DNA from: Flagellimonas spongiicola
GTDB lineage: Bacteria; Bacteroidota; Bacteroidia; Flavobacteriales; Flavobacteriaceae
Direction of reading: 5' to 3'
NCBI RefSeq assembly: GCF_023502425.1
Contig: NZ_JAMFMA010000001.1
Span: forward strand, 1,240,001 to 1,304,000
Length of the DNA: 64,000 nt
Shown: in pieces, positions 38,652 through 45,564 of the stretch
Numbering within the stretch: the stretch's first letter is position 1
How the letters are laid out: every line of letters begins with the position of its first letter
Notes under the pieces: model-generated
Told to the model about the DNA's origin: nothing
What the model saw: the letters and a program-made list of their open reading frames with translations, nothing else
The model's database searches: none
Position numbers and translations under genes: made by a program

Positions 38652-40862
38652 TCATGAAGCCGTAAACTTGGCAAGTTGCTGTTCTTCGCCCGCCTCATGA
38701 AGTCGTACCAAAAACTCCTCACTGCGTTGATTGGGCTTGCCAAAATTATACTGAACAGTGCATTTTAGAAAAGTAGGAATGCTATTCCCTGATGTTCTAT
38801 TGCCCAAGTAGGTCACATTTAAAATCCATTCACCAACGGTATCCGGTCCTACAATCTCAAATTGTTCGCTACTAAAACCGTGTTGCAATTCATCCAATAT
38901 TCGCTTTTTGTCACTAGTATCCGTATGCTCCCAATTAAAAAACCGTTTTTGTGGATTTACGAACTGAACGACGAATTCAGAATCTGGATTGCTCCATTCC
39001 AAGACCACACGCGCATTGTACGTAAGATTATTTCGATAGGCATTGTCCACCTTGGATAGGTCCAAATTGTTCTTTTGTTGATTCACCAAATTGCGGAGTT
39101 CAGTGCCCATTAATTTTTCAACTCCCATAAAATTCAAGGCCGGATTCGCAGACCCATCAACAATGCGATGAGAAAGTGTTAAGGCTTCTTGGTAGTTGCC
39201 ACTTTCCTTTTGGGCCAACGCCAAATCCATATAGGATTGGATTTTGTTTCCATATTCTGCTACCATCCGTTCGGCTATCAATACTGCCATTTCATAATTG
39301 CCATTTTCACGAGATTTTAAATAGGTAGCTCTTAGCTCCTCATAACTCGAATTTGATTTTTCCAATACATTGGATAGAATACGCATACCGAGTTCTGGAC
39401 TGGAGGTATGGAAAAAGTTGGATACGTCCACAAGGTATTCCGGTAAATTCGAATAGTTATTCCGTTGTTTCAAATAAATCTGATATGCTTCCTTTAAGGA
39501 TTTGCCATTTTTAAGTTCCTTTAAATACGGCGTAACCAATTCTTTTTTATTGACTTTTAATTTACCATCGTACACATTGTTGGTCAATCGGGCCAAGTCT
39601 CTTTTTTCACCATTTGGACCTTTGACTAAAGCTGTTTTTGTGGTTATCAATAACACCCCGTTTGCTCCCATACTACCAAACCGATTAGTGGCTGCAAGTC
39701 CTTTTAAAACCGTTATTTCAGCAATGTTTCTTGGATCTATGAAATTAGTATTGGACAGGCTACTGGATCTTGAAGTATCATTGCTTCTTGTTGGTGGGTC
39801 ATCCAATAATCCTTGCGAACTGGAACTTGCTCTTCTTGTGGGCACACCATCAATGACAATAAGTCCATAATTACTTCCTAAAATGGAGTTGCTTGGCCGC
39901 ATCACAATTTGGCTCAAATCGTCATTTTGACCTAATCTGACACCCGAAAATTTGCCTTGTATTGCTCTGTTTCCATCGGTAGCTGCATCAGGAATTACCT
40001 CTTCGGTAATGGACTGCACGGCATACCCCACTTTGTCCTTGTTTTCCTTTCCAAAAGCTGTCGTAATCTCCTCGGGCTTTACCTCCACTTCTTCAGTCAC
40101 GACAACTTCATCCAATACAATTCCGGAGTCATCAAACGTGAAGCTTAATGCTTGACTATCGCCCAACAATTGCTCTTTTATGATATTGCCATAGGAAAGT
40201 ACCAAGGTTTCTCCTTTTTCCGCTTCAATCTGAAAACCACCGTTAGTATTTGTTTTGACCTTGTTCTCTGGGTTTTCTTTGGAATGTACCGATACATCTG
40301 CTAAGCCGCTGGTGCCATTGTACACAGTTCCAGAATATGCTACTTTATTTAATGCAGTAGTATCCTTTAATGCTAGGTTAACCAAATTACCATTATTTAC
40401 AATGGCCAAAAGGTTCAATGTGGCACGATCAAAATCTTTTTTACTATTGATAATATATACTTCGCCTTGAAAACTAGGGGCCGAAGTTCCCAAGTTTTGG
40501 TTACCATCCGTAAATATCAAAACTTCATCACCGCTCACATAATTTCCCAATTTAGCATAGGAAGTACCCCCATCATAATCCGCCCTACTTAATCTTTCCT
40601 TTAAAGATGACCAATTACCAGAATTCACTGTAAAACCTTCTTTTTCTTGTACATCGTTGCTGAAAGTCAATATATCAACATTGGCATCTTGCAATGTTTT
40701 AAAGTAGGCATCCAAAAAGTAAAATTCCTTCTCTAAATTTCTATCCTGCATGGAATGCGAAACATCCCAGCACAATGCCACTTTTTTTGGAGCTTGTGCG
40801 GTAATTGTGGACATTCCCGCAAATAGAAATGCCACAAATAAACAAATATTGTTTTTGGTCAT
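38652..40862 (-). CDS. Secreted VWA + carboxypeptidase-like + TonB-plug + TPR protein without a beta-barrel
   Basis: The 736-residue protein has a signal peptide (to about residue 23) and then four clear parts. A VWA domain (about 27-165) has an intact MIDAS start Asp33-x-Ser35-x-Ser37 (DVSHS). A carboxypeptidase-like regulatory Ig-fold follows (about 170-262, ending LDEVVVTEEV). Next is a TonB-receptor plug (about 280-415; QGKFSGVRL, VIDGVP, NIAEITVLKGLAA, GANGVLLITTK). Then come TPR-like helices (about 460-615) and a C-terminal domain (about 620-736). No outer-membrane barrel of 22 strands follows the plug, which is normal for SusC-like receptors. The C-terminal domain is shared with the next gene upstream on the same strand (residues about 455-577 there). 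Function unknown. The start ATG at 40862 lies 10 bases past the paralogue stop. Confidence 0.75.
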   Translation of the reverse strand: MTKNNICLFVAFLFAGMSTITAQAPKKVALCWDVSHSMQDRNLEKEFYFLDAYFKTLQDANVDILTFSNDVQEKEGFTVNSGNWSSLKERLSRADYDGGTSYAKLGNYVSGDEVLIFTDGNQNLGTSAPSFQGEVYIINSKKDFDRATLNLLAIVNNGNLVNLALKDTTALNKVAYSGTVYNGTSGLADVSVHSKENPENKVKTNTNGGFQIEAEKGETLVLSYGNIIKEQLLGDSQALSFTFDDSGIVLDEVVVTEEVEVKPEEITTAFGKENKDKVGYAVQSITEEVIPDAATDGNRAIQGKFSGVRLGQNDDLSQIVMRPSNSILGSNYGLIVIDGVPTRRASSSSQGLLDDPPTRSNDTSRSSSLSNTNFIDPRNIAEITVLKGLAATNRFGSMGANGVLLITTKTALVKGPNGEKRDLARLTNNVYDGKLKVNKKELVTPYLKELKNGKSLKEAYQIYLKQRNNYSNLPEYLVDVSNFFHTSSPELGMRILSNVLEKSNSSYEELRATYLKSRENGNYEMAVLIAERMVAEYGNKIQSYMDLALAQKESGNYQEALTLSHRIVDGSANPALNFMGVEKLMGTELRNLVNQQKNNLDLSKVDNAYRNNLTYNARVVLEWSNPDSEFVVQFVNPQKRFFNWEHTDTSDKKRILDELQHGFSSEQFEIVGPDTVGEWILNVTYLGNRTSGNSIPTFLKCTVQYNFGKPNQRSEEFLVRLHEAGEEQQLAKFTAS

Positions 40863-40872
40863 TATCTGTTGA

Positions 40873-42606
40873 TTAATTCAGGGCAAAAAGTTGTTGATTT
40901 ACGTTCTTGGCACGTAACTTAAAAACCTTGATTTCCTTAGACTGGTTGGGTGTGTTGAAGTTTTTGTAGATTGTTGTCTTCAAATAAACCGGGGTAAGTC
41001 TTTTATTGCCCAAATATTTGATGTTTACTTTCCAAGTGCCACTCATTGGCTTGTAAATTAGATACTCTTCACTCGAATATCCTATTAATTTTTCCTCTTT
41101 AATTCTATCTGGGTTCTTATTTAACGAATGCGCCCAAGTGAACTCACGTTGTTCTGGGTTTACGAATTGGATATCAAATTCAGCTTCTCCGTCATTCCAT
41201 TCAAAGACCAGTCTTGTGCCATCAAATTCTTCCTTACTAAATGGCATATCCTTCTGATATTTTGCCACCTGATTACCGTTCAATACTAGTAGATTATTGA
41301 AATCGTTGTTCATTACATCCATAAATTCATCGGACTTCCCCAACAATGCCTGATCCACCAAGTAACTGTAACGTGCATGCATGGTTGCAGACCTTCCAAA
41401 ATCCCCAATATTGTAGTAACTACTCGCTAAATTCTTGTACGACTGAACATATGCAGGTCGCAATCGGAAAACGTCTTTGTAGACCTCTAGGGCAGATTTA
41501 TGCATTCCCTGTGCTTCCATTTTATAAGCCAAGGCCTTTAGTATTGTGGCATCATTTGAGAATCGAGTCCATAACTCATCCCCTATTTTACGCGCCTGTT
41601 CATCATCGTTTAGTTCCGATGAAAAGTAGGAGAAACAATCCAAATAAAAATATGGGGAGTTCTTATAATTGGTTTCCAAATTTTCAAAAATCCCCCTAGC
41701 CTCTTTTCTATTCTGCGCTTTACCAATTTCCTCTAAATAAACTGGGGTTTCTAAACTTGATCCTAACACCACATGTTGATTTTCCAAGTAATGCTCTCGA
41801 AAGGCAACCGGACCAATTTCGTCTTTTTTCGGAGGTCTTTGCGGACTGGTATTGGCTATGGTTGTGTTAATAACCACTAATCCTCCGGCAGCTACGGTGC
41901 CATATTTTGCAAGCGCAACTGGTGAATTTATGATACCAATTCGCTCTATAGTTTCGATGGGAATGTAGGTAGGCGCATCAGCGATTATAAAACCATCCAA
42001 TTCAAAGGCTGCAGGCCGAAATCCTGTTAGGGAATTAAAACGTCTTGGCAAGTAAAGCAGCGGTCTTGTTGGGTCGCTGCGGTCTACGCGCACGCCTGGA
42101 ATTTTGTTTTCAATCATCGTCACCACATCAATGACAGCCAGATTGAAATCTTTATTGTCTATTATTCGTAATGAGTAACCTACCCGGTTCTTGTCTAGAA
42201 TACCAAATGCAGTTTTAACCAAGTTCTTGTTCGTGTTGTATTCCAGTAGTAGCTCATTTTGCGTTTTTCGTTTAGTTTGCGTGATGACTACTTCATCCAA
42301 TTCCTCCACATATTCAGAAAGGACAATATTCAAGAACTGGGTGACATCTTCAATGACGACTTCCACATTATCCTTTCCAGGATAAGAATACACTAATGTT
42401 TGTCCAACTTCAGCCTTGATTTTATAAACGCCATTAACATCTGTTTTAGCAGAAGCATCCGTTTCGGCAACTTGCACCGAAACATTGGTAAGTCGTTCGA
42501 ATCCATCGGTAACAAAACCTTGAATTTGTTTTGATTGCCCAAAGGTCATCGAGACAGAAACCAGAAAGAAAATAAGGATGTACGAAGTGTAGTGATTAGA
42601 TTTCAT
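40873..42606 (-). CDS. Secreted carboxypeptidase-like + TonB-plug + TPR protein without a beta-barrel
   Basis: The 577-residue paralogue of the next gene has a signal peptide (to about residue 24), a carboxypeptidase-like Ig-fold (about 26-100, ending ELDEVVIT), a degenerate TonB plug (about 130-250; GVRVDRSDPTRP, FELDGFII, IETIERIGIINSP, AAGGLVVINTT), TPR-like helices (about 300-430) and the shared C-terminal domain (about 455-577; FVNPEQREFTWAHS, WKVNIKYLGNK). It lacks the VWA domain. The two genes are 10 bases apart and almost certainly co-transcribed. A barrel is absent, so it is not a normal TonB-dependent transporter. Function unknown. Confidence 0.75.
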   Translation of the reverse strand: MKSNHYTSYILIFFLVSVSMTFGQSKQIQGFVTDGFERLTNVSVQVAETDASAKTDVNGVYKIKAEVGQTLVYSYPGKDNVEVVIEDVTQFLNIVLSEYVEELDEVVITQTKRKTQNELLLEYNTNKNLVKTAFGILDKNRVGYSLRIIDNKDFNLAVIDVVTMIENKIPGVRVDRSDPTRPLLYLPRRFNSLTGFRPAAFELDGFIIADAPTYIPIETIERIGIINSPVALAKYGTVAAGGLVVINTTIANTSPQRPPKKDEIGPVAFREHYLENQHVVLGSSLETPVYLEEIGKAQNRKEARGIFENLETNYKNSPYFYLDCFSYFSSELNDDEQARKIGDELWTRFSNDATILKALAYKMEAQGMHKSALEVYKDVFRLRPAYVQSYKNLASSYYNIGDFGRSATMHARYSYLVDQALLGKSDEFMDVMNNDFNNLLVLNGNQVAKYQKDMPFSKEEFDGTRLVFEWNDGEAEFDIQFVNPEQREFTWAHSLNKNPDRIKEEKLIGYSSEEYLIYKPMSGTWKVNIKYLGNKRLTPVYLKTTIYKNFNTPNQSKEIKVFKLRAKNVNQQLFALN

Positions 42607-42732: not shown

Positions 42733-44082
42733 TTAATTTCCTTGATGGTGTTTTGGTCTTGGTATCAACAATAGTTCCGTTTGACGACCATTTACATATC
42801 TAAAACCGTCTTCTCCATAAAACCCCGCTTCTTCCAACATAACACGTATATCCCGCTTCCATTCTGGAATATGGACCGTGGTATTCAATTCAATGGCATA
42901 TACGGTATTAGGATTAAGCGGATAGTTCTCTCCATCGTCCTTCATGACACCATCTTGTGCATCCCACATACCTATTGTTGTTCCTGCCGAATGACCATAG
43001 GAACCCAAAGGATGTGTATAAATGGCCGGTTTGAGGCCAACTGCCTTAGCATCCGACAAAGCTTTCGCCAAAATTTCATTTCCAGTTCTACCCGTGATCA
43101 TATTTTTCGTCAAAAAATCCTGCACTCGATTGCCGTCATAAAGGGCATTTACCAAATATGAAGGGGCCGAGGTTTCATTAGGTCGTAGCACATAGGCCAG
43201 TTCCTGGCAATCCGTGTTCAAGCGTAGATAGGTAATCCCAAAATCACAATGCAACAAATCCCCAGGTTGGATTACCAAATCGTCCGGTCTGCCTGAAAAC
43301 GAATACAAGTGGCTCACTAACTCCTCGCTCGTGCGTTGCACATCAACTGTAGGATGAAACCATGTCTCCAATCCCAAGTCCGTTACTTTCTGTCGCATCC
43401 ACCACTCTACCTCAGTAGTTGTGGTGATTCCCGGTGTAATCACTTTTTCAGAAAATGCTTCAGCAATGATGTCATGCGTAACCTCCACTAATTGATCATA
43501 GATGATCATTTCACGCTCTGTCCTGGTTTCAATCCATCGTACTGCCAATTGCTCTGCCGATTGAATCTTGGAATGATAATTTTTAGGCAAGTTGGCCATA
43601 AAACCATCATAATCCGTCTTATCCAAACCATCGGCAATGTTATGATCTTTTGAAAAATTTAAACCAATAGTTGAAGGGTTGCGTTCTTCAATTAGCTGCA
43701 TCAATCGTTTCCACTGGTCGGGTTCTTTTTCCTTATCCCATGCTGATTTTATGCTCTTACCTACATTGTAACGCGCAACAGCCAATCTATCAATAGTGTC
43801 TTTGTCCTTATTTCTGTAGAACAACAAAATGGTTCTCCTGCGTGCATTTAACCATTTGGCCGGTAGCATCGTTTTTAATACAGGGTCTTCGTTGTACTCG
43901 CGAGATATCAAAATCCACATGTCTATCCCGGTCTCATCCATAAGTTTTGGCAACAAGACACTAAATCGTTCTTCCAATAGCTCATCCACCACCCTGGCGC
44001 GTTCAACTTCAGGAAGGATTTGCTGCGCATTAGCCGTAAATGTGATGAAAATGATCAGTAGGAAGGTGTAGAATTTAGTCAT
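42733..44082 (-). CDS. M24 family metallopeptidase (Xaa-Pro aminopeptidase-like), exported
   Basis: The ATG at 44082 gives 449 residues with a signal peptide (MTKFYTFLLIIFITFTANAQ); the longer open frame would overlap the neighbouring terminator. The creatinase-like N-terminal domain (about 25-180) precedes a pita-bread fold with the metal-binding pattern of M24 peptidases: LLHCDFGITYLRLNTDCQ, PLGSYGHSAGTTIG and YAIELNT. Known role of the family: removal of N-terminal residues, often before proline. Export to the periplasm is inferred. It lies between the plug-domain genes and the VWA gene on the same strand. Confidence 0.85.
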   Translation of the reverse strand: MTKFYTFLLIIFITFTANAQQILPEVERARVVDELLEERFSVLLPKLMDETGIDMWILISREYNEDPVLKTMLPAKWLNARRRTILLFYRNKDKDTIDRLAVARYNVGKSIKSAWDKEKEPDQWKRLMQLIEERNPSTIGLNFSKDHNIADGLDKTDYDGFMANLPKNYHSKIQSAEQLAVRWIETRTEREMIIYDQLVEVTHDIIAEAFSEKVITPGITTTTEVEWWMRQKVTDLGLETWFHPTVDVQRTSEELVSHLYSFSGRPDDLVIQPGDLLHCDFGITYLRLNTDCQELAYVLRPNETSAPSYLVNALYDGNRVQDFLTKNMITGRTGNEILAKALSDAKAVGLKPAIYTHPLGSYGHSAGTTIGMWDAQDGVMKDDGENYPLNPNTVYAIELNTTVHIPEWKRDIRVMLEEAGFYGEDGFRYVNGRQTELLLIPRPKHHQGN

Positions 44083-44119
44083 GAATCTAAGTTTGCCTGA
44101 AAGTACATTTTTCAGACAC

Positions 44120-44145
44120 AAAAAAAAAGTGCCCGAAGGCACTTT
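44120..44145 (-). terminator. Intrinsic terminator with TTCG tetraloop after the VWA gene
   Basis: On the minus strand AAAGTGCC-TTCG-GGCACTTT is followed by a run of T. It lies 15 bases past the stop of the gene at 44161. The stable tetraloop and T run are textbook. Confidence 0.92.
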
Positions 44146-44160
44146 ACGATTTGGCGAATT

Positions 44161-45564
44161 TTAGACCCTAGCATACTTTTTAACTATGCGAACAATTATA
44201 TCATTTAACTTTTCAACTGAATAATCTTCTTTAGTTGGTTTTAAATGCTTATTTCCAATTCCACTGTCGTCTGTAAGGAAAACGTAAGTTCCGTTCGTAG
44301 ATACACTAAAAAATCGCATCAAAAACTCTACAGTTTTATCCGCCCCACTTGCCACTACAGGAACTATTTTAACCCCCTTTTCCTGTGCAATTTTAATTTG
44401 TTTTTGAATCAACCCAACCGATTGCTCTGTAAGATGGGGAGGTGCATCTAACAAGAAAAACAGGAGTTTTGCTTTAGCGTTTACGTCCCAAGATTTTGAC
44501 ATTGATACCTTTAAAGCTTCATCTACTGCTTCCTGATAATCTCCTCCGCCATTTGCAGATTGTCGATTTAAGTTCCTCTGGACTTTTTCAATATCAGAAT
44601 CAAAATCAAAATCCCTAGTTAGATATTCATCATTCACATCTCTATAAAAAGTCAATGCAACTCGTTTGCTACCAATATTATCATCTATACGATTAATAAT
44701 ATCACGAAGTTCTTCCTTCAAATAATCCATTTCATCACCCATTGATCCTGTAGCATCTATAGTAAACATAATGTCAACATTTTTGGCAACTGACTTTTCG
44801 TTTAATGTGAAATCCACGGTCTTAGCATTAGCATTTATTTTTTTACCATGGATTTTGCTATTATGTTGTACTTGTACATAATAGTATTCGTCCAATTTTC
44901 TTGAATGTAAATCTTTGAAAATTATCGCCTTACCAAATGCATCTGTCTTAGTTTTCATAATAGGTGAATTTGATGACGGATTATCATTGAAAACCTTAAC
45001 ACTTATGTTTGCTAAAGGTTCATTTTTGTTGTTTGCTATTGATACCTCTAATTTGTTTTCCAAATAAAAGCCCCAGTCCTCTTGAATTTTTTGATATTCC
45101 TTTCGCTTTAAGGTTTTCCTCCATTCTTGGAAATCTTGAATATCGTTGATTTCTCCTGCTGTCAAAATACCCGCACCGTAATTGCTTCCAACATACACAC
45201 CACCAACTCTGCCACTTAATGCCTTGGATACACTGTACCCAGCAACAACAACTTCTTCCAACATCTCGGAATCCTCACTCATAACGACATTAATTATGGT
45301 GTTTTCGGTTACCGTTACGCGTTCAGTTTTCATCCCTAAATAGGTGAAAAATAATATTTCACCAATTTTTGCGGATATCTTATAATTTCCGTCAAAATCA
45401 GTATGGGTACTGTTATCAGTATCACCAACAGTAATAATTACGCCAGGTAAAGGAGTCTCTGTTTCATCAACAACTTTTCCAGTGATATTGATTTTTTGGG
45501 CTGACAAAGATGACACCGTAAAGAATAGAATAGAAAATAAAACTGAAGTTCTCATAATTGACAT
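44161..45564 (-). CDS. Secreted carboxypeptidase-like/VWA domain protein
   Basis: The ATG at 45564 is preferred (467 residues, MSIMRTSVLFSILFFTV signal peptide); an in-frame codon at 45597 adds 11 residues. A carboxypeptidase-like Ig-fold (about 25-95) ends at LEEVVVAGYSVSKALSGRVGG, which looks like the start of a TonB plug that is otherwise missing. A second Ig-like region follows (about 165-250). A C-terminal VWA domain has the MIDAS motif DATGSMGDE (Asp-x-Thr-x-Ser), then about 200 more residues. Similar VWA proteins occur in Bacteroidota with no known role. It may belong with the two plug-domain genes. Confidence 0.75.
   Translation of the reverse strand: MSIMRTSVLFSILFFTVSSLSAQKINITGKVVDETETPLPGVIITVGDTDNSTHTDFDGNYKISAKIGEILFFTYLGMKTERVTVTENTIINVVMSEDSEMLEEVVVAGYSVSKALSGRVGGVYVGSNYGAGILTAGEINDIQDFQEWRKTLKRKEYQKIQEDWGFYLENKLEVSIANNKNEPLANISVKVFNDNPSSNSPIMKTKTDAFGKAIIFKDLHSRKLDEYYYVQVQHNSKIHGKKINANAKTVDFTLNEKSVAKNVDIMFTIDATGSMGDEMDYLKEELRDIINRIDDNIGSKRVALTFYRDVNDEYLTRDFDFDSDIEKVQRNLNRQSANGGGDYQEAVDEALKVSMSKSWDVNAKAKLLFFLLDAPPHLTEQSVGLIQKQIKIAQEKGVKIVPVVASGADKTVEFLMRFFSVSTNGTYVFLTDDSGIGNKHLKPTKEDYSVEKLNDIIVRIVKKYARV

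Follow-up and report, generated by a model that had tools for sequence, protein, structure and literature searches.

Two adjacent genes for plug-bearing proteins without a barrel

The window analysed here is a stretch of 64,000 nucleotides from the genome of Flagellimonas spongiicola (Bacteroidota, Flavobacteriaceae; assembly GCF_023502425.1, contig NZ_JAMFMA010000001.1, positions 1,240,001 to 1,304,000). Two of its open reading frames, P0001 and P0002, are both intact, lie on the minus strand and are separated by 10 bases. Both encoded proteins have an NTE domain, a TonB box and a plug, in the same order as the SusC/RagA receptors (TIGR04056) and with homology to them. Unlike SusC/RagA, they do not have the 22-strand barrel: TPR helices and a DUF2135 domain follow the plug, and in P0001 a VWA domain precedes the NTE (Table 1).

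A preliminary description of the locus had listed two linked genes for exported proteins with a carboxypeptidase-like Ig-fold, a plug and TPR repeats. Pfam searches and structure models bore out this composition, with the qualification that the plug of P0002 is degenerate. The description had also attributed an extra VWA domain with an intact metal site to one of the proteins. P0001 indeed has the DxSxS, Thr and Asp ligands of a metal ion-dependent adhesion site, and P0002 has no VWA domain. The ligands are conserved over 80 relatives: D33 and S35 are present in 80, S37 in 77, T100 in 57 (Ser in a further 11) and D119 in 78.

Table 1. Genes and protein features at the locus (positions in the window)
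Feature	Position	Strand	Description
P0001	38652..40862	-	736 aa; signal peptide (by inspection)-VWA-NTE-TonB box-plug-TPR-DUF2135
P0001 VWA	40377..40787	-	residues 26-162; metal site D33-x-S35-x-S37, T100, D119
P0001 NTE/CarbopepD_reg_2	40116..40334	-	residues 177-249
P0001 TonB box LDEVVV	40098..40115	-	residues 250-255
P0001 Plug	39633..40070	-	residues 265-410; Pfam Plug, match to SusC BT_2264
P0001 TPR helices	39063..39530	-	residues ~445-600; weak Pfam TPR, AlphaFold2 model
P0001 DUF2135	38658..39014	-	residues 617-735
P0002	40873..42606	-	577 aa; signal peptide (by inspection)-NTE-TonB box-degenerate plug-TPR-DUF2135
P0002 NTE	42301..42528	-	residues 27-102; Pfam CarbopepD_reg_2 over cut-off
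P0002 TonB box LDEVVI	42283..42300	-	residues 103-108
P0002 degenerate plug	41857..42225	-	residues ~128-250; own profile, P0001-P0002 homology
P0002 TPR helices	41248..41742	-	residues 289-453; Pfam TPR below cut-off, model, fold matches
P0002 DUF2135	40879..41220	-	residues 463-576; over Pfam cut-off in whole-genome search
M24 metallopeptidase	42733..44142	-	signal peptide (by inspection); frequent upstream neighbour of family genes
P0003	44161..45597	-	478 aa; NTE-TonB box-first bit of plug-weak MG3-like-VWA
P0003 TonB box LEEVVV	45244..45261	-	

In P0001 the Pfam Plug match (residues 275-403, E 4.4e-10) exceeds the cut-off. The matches to VWA_2 (22.4 bits, cut-off 27) and CarbopepD_reg_2 (20.8 bits, cut-off 32.2) fall below theirs, and the NTE scored 17 bits with our own profile; our NTE, box and plug profiles were built from 12 receptors of this genome. 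VWA chains were the majority among the fold matches listed for P0001, and the SusC NTE 9hfj was a fold match for the NTE of P0001 and of P0002. The two proteins are homologous from the NTE nearly to the end (27% identity, E 2e-49). P0002 gave no Pfam Plug match at E<=1 and scored 9 bits with the plug profile from this genome's receptors; with the same profile the P0002-type relatives in L040, L158 and L160 (L numbers denote collected loci) scored 25-36 bits. Residue R322 of the P0001-type plug is kept in 80 of 80 relatives. BamP was rejected as an assignment for P0002, the score of NF053692 being 29.1 bits, confined to the NTE region, against a cut-off of 230.

The nearest named relatives of P0001 are from Flagellimonas, Allomuricauda and Muricauda (57-66% identity). 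The same genome encodes a paralogue of 1000 amino acids about 140 kb from P0001 (L034:8110-11109, minus strand), which has two CarboxypepD stretches, a VWA match below the cut-off, the box LEEVVV and a Plug match over the cut-off, and ends in a P0001-type C-terminal domain recognised with an iterated profile.

Absence of a beta-barrel

No Pfam barrel family matched P0001 or P0002 at E<=1. With TIGR04056, a model of 981 positions, the best stretch in P0001 covered positions 5-207 and that in P0002 positions 2-94. In the PDB, P0001 was matched best by the SusC protein BT_2264 (query 253-411, chain 14-169, E 7e-14), and this match stops at residue 411, about where the barrel would start; the fifth PDB match, a weak one, extends to query residue 437. 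In the whole genome the Pfam barrel model had 31 matches, 30 of them over the cut-off, and none lay within the frames of P0001 and P0002. As a positive control, a receptor in a collected locus (L038:11820-14693) received a Pfam barrel with 108 bits. The barrel model does miss some receptors, since Plug has 40 matches in this genome and the cut receptor L155 shows a plug and no barrel match.

Because Pfam fails on L155, the AlphaFold2 models carry more weight on this point. In both of them (pLDDT 78.7 for P0001, 83.2 for P0002) helices and a beta-sandwich follow the plug and take the place of the barrel. The preliminary description had stated that there is no barrel and that a plug without one cannot be an ordinary transporter. 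Structure prediction of both proteins and Pfam alike show none, and with TIGR04056 they bear out both statements. Porphyromonas gingivalis PorF, for which the term plug-domain protein has been used in print, is described in the accessible part of PMC12704123 as a likely importer and was set aside as a parallel.

The C-terminal domain is a divergent DUF2135

In the first 40 loci and the window, 55 proteins have the C-terminal domain of P0001 and P0002, which ends no more than about 25 residues from the terminus. The preliminary description had noted that the two proteins share this domain, which holds, and had taken it for an unrecognised one, which does not: in profile-profile comparison it is a divergent DUF2135 (PF09906; Escherichia coli YfaP). 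A profile of 20 copies from proteins without a VIT domain was aligned by hhalign to ten copies from VIT-type proteins, each of which is over the Pfam DUF2135 cut-off, along 116 columns with E 2.1e-18. The same profile matched E. coli YfaP with E 8.2e-12. This identity rules out a new domain.

Direct scores with PF09906 (cut-off 22) are marginal. P0002 reached 22.5 bits in the genome search, 17.1 as a whole protein and 21.1 as an isolated domain; the corresponding values for P0001 were 20, 15.8 and 18.8. When eight VIT-less relatives were scanned whole, one matched at E<=0.1, below the cut-off, and the isolated domain of L043 scored 24.8 bits. All 15 VIT proteins scanned were over the cut-off (24.7-66.1 bits). 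The homology with DUF2135 proteins such as YfaP extends over 108-116 columns, whereas the canonical acidic motif TDxDL is eroded to AEFxL in the window copies, and these are fused to TPR, plug and NTE. Sequence comparison gave no DUF2135 relative with a solved structure (best E 0.47), and none was recognisable among the fold matches listed.

Conservation of the TonB box

The TonB box had not been part of the preliminary description; nor had the kinship with VIT-VWA-DUF2135 proteins, the M24 neighbour and the YfbK-type barrel-less family described below. Between NTE and plug P0001 has LDEVVV and P0002 has LDEVVI. For comparison, the available sections of PMC7782687 give the Ton box of the SusC protein Bt1763 as DEVVVTG, unstructured in the NMR structure of the NTE, and report that strains without it behave as non-functional. 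In the AlphaFold2 models the box falls in segments with pLDDT below 50 (residues 245-262 of P0001, 102-110 of P0002). Loci were collected for 29 of the 39 other Plug matches in the genome; L.[EG][VI].[VIL] stood at the box position in 25 of the 29, four within 60 residues of the start.

Conservation was measured in 80 distinct VWA-type and 60 distinct P0002-type proteins. In the VWA type the box had 2.80 bits per column, compared with 1.37 for the NTE, 1.13 for the following linker, 2.17 for the plug, 1.76 for the TPR part and 2.29 for the C-terminal domain. In the P0002 type the values were 3.18 for the box, 2.10 for the NTE, 2.00 for the linker, 2.13 for the plug and 2.72 for the C-terminal domain. 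We also compared the box with other six-residue windows in low-confidence blocks, picked manually where the mean over ten residues did not exceed 60, excluding the signal peptide. With sequence weighting no such window equalled the box (0/74 in the VWA type, 0/30 in the P0002 type). The relaxed pattern L..[VILF].[VIL] is present in all 140 proteins (80/80 and 60/60), the strict form L-[DENQSK]-E-[VI]-x-[VIL] in 64/80 and 46/60, respectively. The pattern used for family annotation misses forms such as EVSV.

The box was also found where its flanking domains were reduced or missing. Five VWA-type members without NTE (L039, L174, L175, L177 and L189), located at three places of the tree, keep LEEVVV, and the VIT-type members L070, L111, L115, L116 and L117 have a box within the linker and at most a fragment of the plug. 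These alignments show that the box is conserved as an element in its own right. It is unlikely to be simply the final strand of the NTE, being unstructured in the SusC NTE according to the same sections of PMC7782687 and surviving NTE loss in five members.

Distribution and origin of the protein family

With a profile of the shared domain the protein family was detected in 31 of 296 genomes sampled across the phylum (E<=1e-4) and in 18 of 295 sampled across the class (E<=1e-6); the two samples overlap. Identical proteins were removed, some genomes having been collected twice, and 202 distinct members were annotated with profiles. Outside Flavobacteriaceae, the family to which the window belongs, there were 28 members: 24 complete long proteins, one truncated copy and three short DUF2135 proteins. 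All 24 complete proteins have a VIT domain and are of the VIT-VWA-TPR-DUF2135 kind; five have a box, and one has a full plug. The remaining loci were taken as Flavobacteriaceae. Here a plug was found in 160 of 170 members of at least 500 amino acids, a share biased upward because the set was partly collected with plug-bearing queries; the rule was loose (at least 8 bits if the match reaches the profile end), degenerate plugs being counted. A VIT domain was present in 15.

P0001 and P0002 have no VIT domain, as judged by Pfam and the family annotation, and P0002 has no VWA domain either; both differ from the VIT-VWA, inter-alpha-inhibitor type also by the TonB module. The likeness to that type lies in the VIT-VWA-TPR-DUF2135 relatives from other families and in the fold matches listed for P0001, among which inter-alpha-inhibitor heavy chain 1 has the best E-value, though with low TM-scores (0.14/0.17).

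In a quick, midpoint-rooted tree of 97 members, which cannot separate gain from loss, the VIT label changed state once and the VWA label four times; seven changes were counted for the box-or-plug label and 11 for the plug label (full, partial or none). As VIT is present in every complete member outside Flavobacteriaceae, inter-alpha-inhibitor-like proteins were probably the recipients of a grafted NTE-box-plug module. The simplest history compatible with the sequences would start from VIT-VWA-TPR-DUF2135 and proceed by grafting of NTE-box-plug, loss of VIT and then loss of VWA. Origin from a receptor that lost its barrel is disfavoured, since all 24 complete outside relatives have VIT and 23 lack a full plug. 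The best explanation is that a VIT/VWA-TPR-DUF2135 family gained from a SusC-type receptor the part that couples to energy (NTE, TonB box and plug) and not the barrel.

Gene neighbourhood

In the window the genes are arranged in the order MenC-like enolase, CAAX/Rce1-like protease, MenE-like ligase, P0003, M24 metallopeptidase, P0002, P0001 and a convergent carboxyl transferase. The MenC_N match of the enolase is just under the cut-off, and the MenE-like ligase is below the NCBIfam cut-offs. Similar gene orders with one to three family genes recur in relatives. Among 41 sources, relatives of these neighbours were found as follows: M24 in 18, MenE-like ligase in 20, protease in 17, MenC-like enolase in 16 and carboxyl transferase in 19. 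Such counts are not rates, because the loci were collected for holding a family gene and many are incomplete. The preliminary description had rightly placed the two genes in a cluster, and the cluster is conserved.

M24 relatives occur in 71 of 156 loci holding a family member. In 60 of the 71 the M24 gene adjoins a family gene on the same strand, a count of loci; these 60 M24 genes represent 54 distinct sequences.

P0003 lies where relatives have a YfbK-type protein. Its plug is reduced to the first strand, ALSGRVGGVYV, and similar box and first-strand pieces were found in L111, L115 and L116. The YfbK-type proteins have the organisation NTE-box-plug-vWF_A-VWA-YfbK_C, are barrel-less like P0001 and P0002, and were represented by 14 distinct proteins in related genomes (examples are L043:12322-14424, L059:3297-5426, L158:471-2630 and L220:1123-3306). 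The box is present in 14/14, and the plug reaches 20 bits in 13/14. The M24 gene separates the YfbK-type gene from the next family gene in 12 of the 14; of the remaining two, one adjoins a VIT-type member (L125). YfbK itself (PF12450, PF12034) is, like these, a VWA protein. The window genome differs in having no YfbK_C match at E<=0.01, with P0003 in that slot.

Possible function and alternative explanations

We tentatively favour the view that P0001 and P0002 are periplasmic scaffolds and clients of TonB, pulled through the box as TolA pulls TolB. The preliminary suggestion of a signalling component, widened to a signalling or mechanical one, comes close to this. For its other two suggestions, a decoy and an assembly partner, no evidence was obtained, neither having been put to a direct test. 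Binding of TonB is predicted from the motif; the genome has three TonB_C matches over the cut-off. The retention of the box in many relatives suggests that the TonB motor may pull on non-transporters. The periplasmic location would follow from the signal peptides and the lack of a lipobox, both judged by eye, and from the rejection of the proteins as type IX secretion cargo, there being no match to a C-terminal sorting domain in NCBIfam at E<=1.

As TonB clients, the proteins would remain in the periplasm, and the VWA metal site, TPR and DUF2135 surfaces would hold a partner anchored to the outer membrane or the cell wall. TonB would join the exposed box through strand addition and then pull, with the proton gradient as the source of force. 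The pull might unfold the plug as a compliant tether or strip the scaffold from its partner; the load would be whatever the VWA, TPR and DUF2135 parts hold, and likely co-workers would be the M24 peptidase and, in related genomes, the YfbK-type protein. According to the text available for PMC5413942, a receptor plug unfolds in its N-terminal half when force is applied through TonB. In the accessible part of PMC7391070 TolA is described as binding soluble TolB by strand addition in a complex resembling that of TonB with the TonB box, the load of the pull being Pal in the outer membrane. TolB offers a precedent for a soluble protein as force target, and a barrel-less box-plug protein could be pulled likewise. 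The proposed likeness to TolB lies in the way of working, in which a motor of the inner membrane would pull a soluble protein of the periplasm by a handle resembling the TonB box; unlike TolB, P0001 and P0002 consist of unrelated domains, show no beta-propeller in the models and would depend on TonB, not TolA, and no Pal is involved.

Several observations weigh against the proteins being TonB clients. Over the whole protein, 87 of 731 windows in the VWA type and 28 of 572 in the P0002 type are as conserved as the box, and 16/80 and 14/60 members, respectively, depart from its strict form. Among the five NTE-less members that keep the box three are close kin of one another; two Aquimarina copies without NTE have a weakened box, and L204, in which no NTE was detected, has LEGVTV. 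In genus g128, close VIT-type kin have no module (L123), the NTE only (L244), NTE, box and a plug fragment (L245) or box and plug (L124). The module is thus dispensable in this genus, having been lost to different degrees among close copies. The plug of P0002 is degenerate, 19 of the 24 complete members outside Flavobacteriaceae have no box, and the periplasmic location relies on the by-eye reading of signal peptides and lipobox, together with the sorting-domain result.

Some of these observations fit a different explanation, a real possibility in our view, in which NTE and plug are a captured interaction or spacer module that no longer meets TonB, and the box persists as the linker between them or as the site of another periplasmic factor. 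The uneven loss in g128 and the degenerate plug of P0002 speak for it. NTE-like domains are not confined to transporters: the NTE parts of P0002 and P0003 match the BamP model, and a BAM chain (9n2d_E) is among the fold matches listed. A spacer accounts less well for the box, which no other six-residue window in the low-confidence blocks equals in conservation and which outlasts the NTE in five members, is kept in others with little or no plug and retains the chemistry of the functional SusC Ton box (as given in the sections of PMC7782687 cited above).

An alternative that we regard as unlikely, and that is compatible with TonB clients, is envelope protection in the manner of alpha-2-macroglobulin (A2M) and the inter-alpha-inhibitors: VWA and DUF2135 would bind proteases or damaged proteins and act together with M24, and the TonB box would serve to recycle or clear the complexes. 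It draws on the VIT proteins found outside Flavobacteriaceae and on the first-ranking, low-TM-score match of P0001 to inter-alpha-inhibitor heavy chain 1. In E. coli yfaQ separates the DUF2135 gene yfaP from yfaS, which encodes an A2M. We also counted for it that the Pseudomonas aeruginosa A2M MagD, in the available text of PMC5764988, forms complexes with proteins of its own operon. Against it, the window's cluster has no recognisable A2M gene, neither P0001 nor P0002 contains VIT, and the acidic motif of their DUF2135 domain is eroded. The frequent same-strand adjacency of M24 speaks for joint action but may be plain synteny of a stable locus, and the MG2-like protein of the same genome, described below, has a box and a plug-like stretch but its MG2 and Plug matches are both below the Pfam cut-offs.

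That the soluble plug acts in trans or as a decoy, filling a receptor barrel or competing for it, appears highly improbable. The plug fold is kept in P0001, with its invariant R322, but in P0002 the plug is degenerate while the box persists, an argument against selection acting on the plug surface, and no recurrent barrel gene was seen among the annotated neighbour clusters, which cover part of the neighbours. A frameshifted or truncated receptor gene, for which nothing speaks beyond the SusC homology on the N-terminal side, is refuted by the open frames of 80 VWA-type and 60 P0002-type distinct proteins, in which TPR and DUF2135 replace the barrel.

If TonB does pull on barrel-less proteins such as P0001 and P0002, a tally of TonB clients by barrel count is wrong, and TonB plugs on VWA, YfbK and other non-transporter proteins would be one phenomenon. 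The accessible part of a survey (PMC12204202) reports that Tol-Pal is not identifiable in Bacteroidota, traces TolB to an outer-membrane protein that lost its barrel, and proposes a force-transducing role for VWA proteins of the inner membrane. Compared with the VWA proteins of that text, P0001 and P0002 have no visible anchor in the inner membrane other than the signal peptide, and it is the receiving side of the machine that they contain. With TonB as the motor, Bacteroidota would gain a candidate for force-driven periplasmic work where, according to the same text, Tol-Pal is unidentified. The wider proposal that the box-plug set of Bacteroidota (VIT/VWA-TPR-DUF2135, YfbK-type and perhaps MG2-type proteins) comprises native soluble TonB clients, which do mechanical work in the periplasm from the proton-motive force and perhaps cover part of the Tol-Pal role, is less likely than not. 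That TonB pulls on barrel-less proteins is directly testable, as the idea singles out a motif of six residues, the motor protein and a conserved cluster.

All the domains are known, and such proteins are probably annotated automatically. No description of the P0001 and P0002 architectures was found in the literature searched, which included few subscription journals and no bioRxiv preprints; DUF2135 was not mentioned in it, nor did TonB, inter-alpha-trypsin, Bacteroid and plug occur jointly.

Other proteins with a box or plug

Four further proteins were recorded, two of them encoded in the same genome. The MG2-like protein of this genome (L259:1055-3493, minus strand) has the box LDEVSV, a plug-like stretch scoring 24.5 bits with our own profile and no barrel match. 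An M56 (BlaR1-type) peptidase (L249:4398-6008, minus strand), also of this genome, ends with the latter half of a plug, just over the Pfam cut-off; it has no box and no barrel match. Beside a P0002-type gene, L047:9606-12317 (minus strand) encodes a protein with MG2 just over the cut-off, LAEVIV recognised by eye and a plug score of 2.2 bits. A protein of about 384 amino acids with CarboxypepD-like domains was not seen in the window and is encoded beside family genes in L035:11365-12516 (plus strand) and 16 more adjacent copies. It overlaps the family gene by a few bases in L035 and L041, and the L035 copy has LDEVVV after its first CarboxypepD-like domain.

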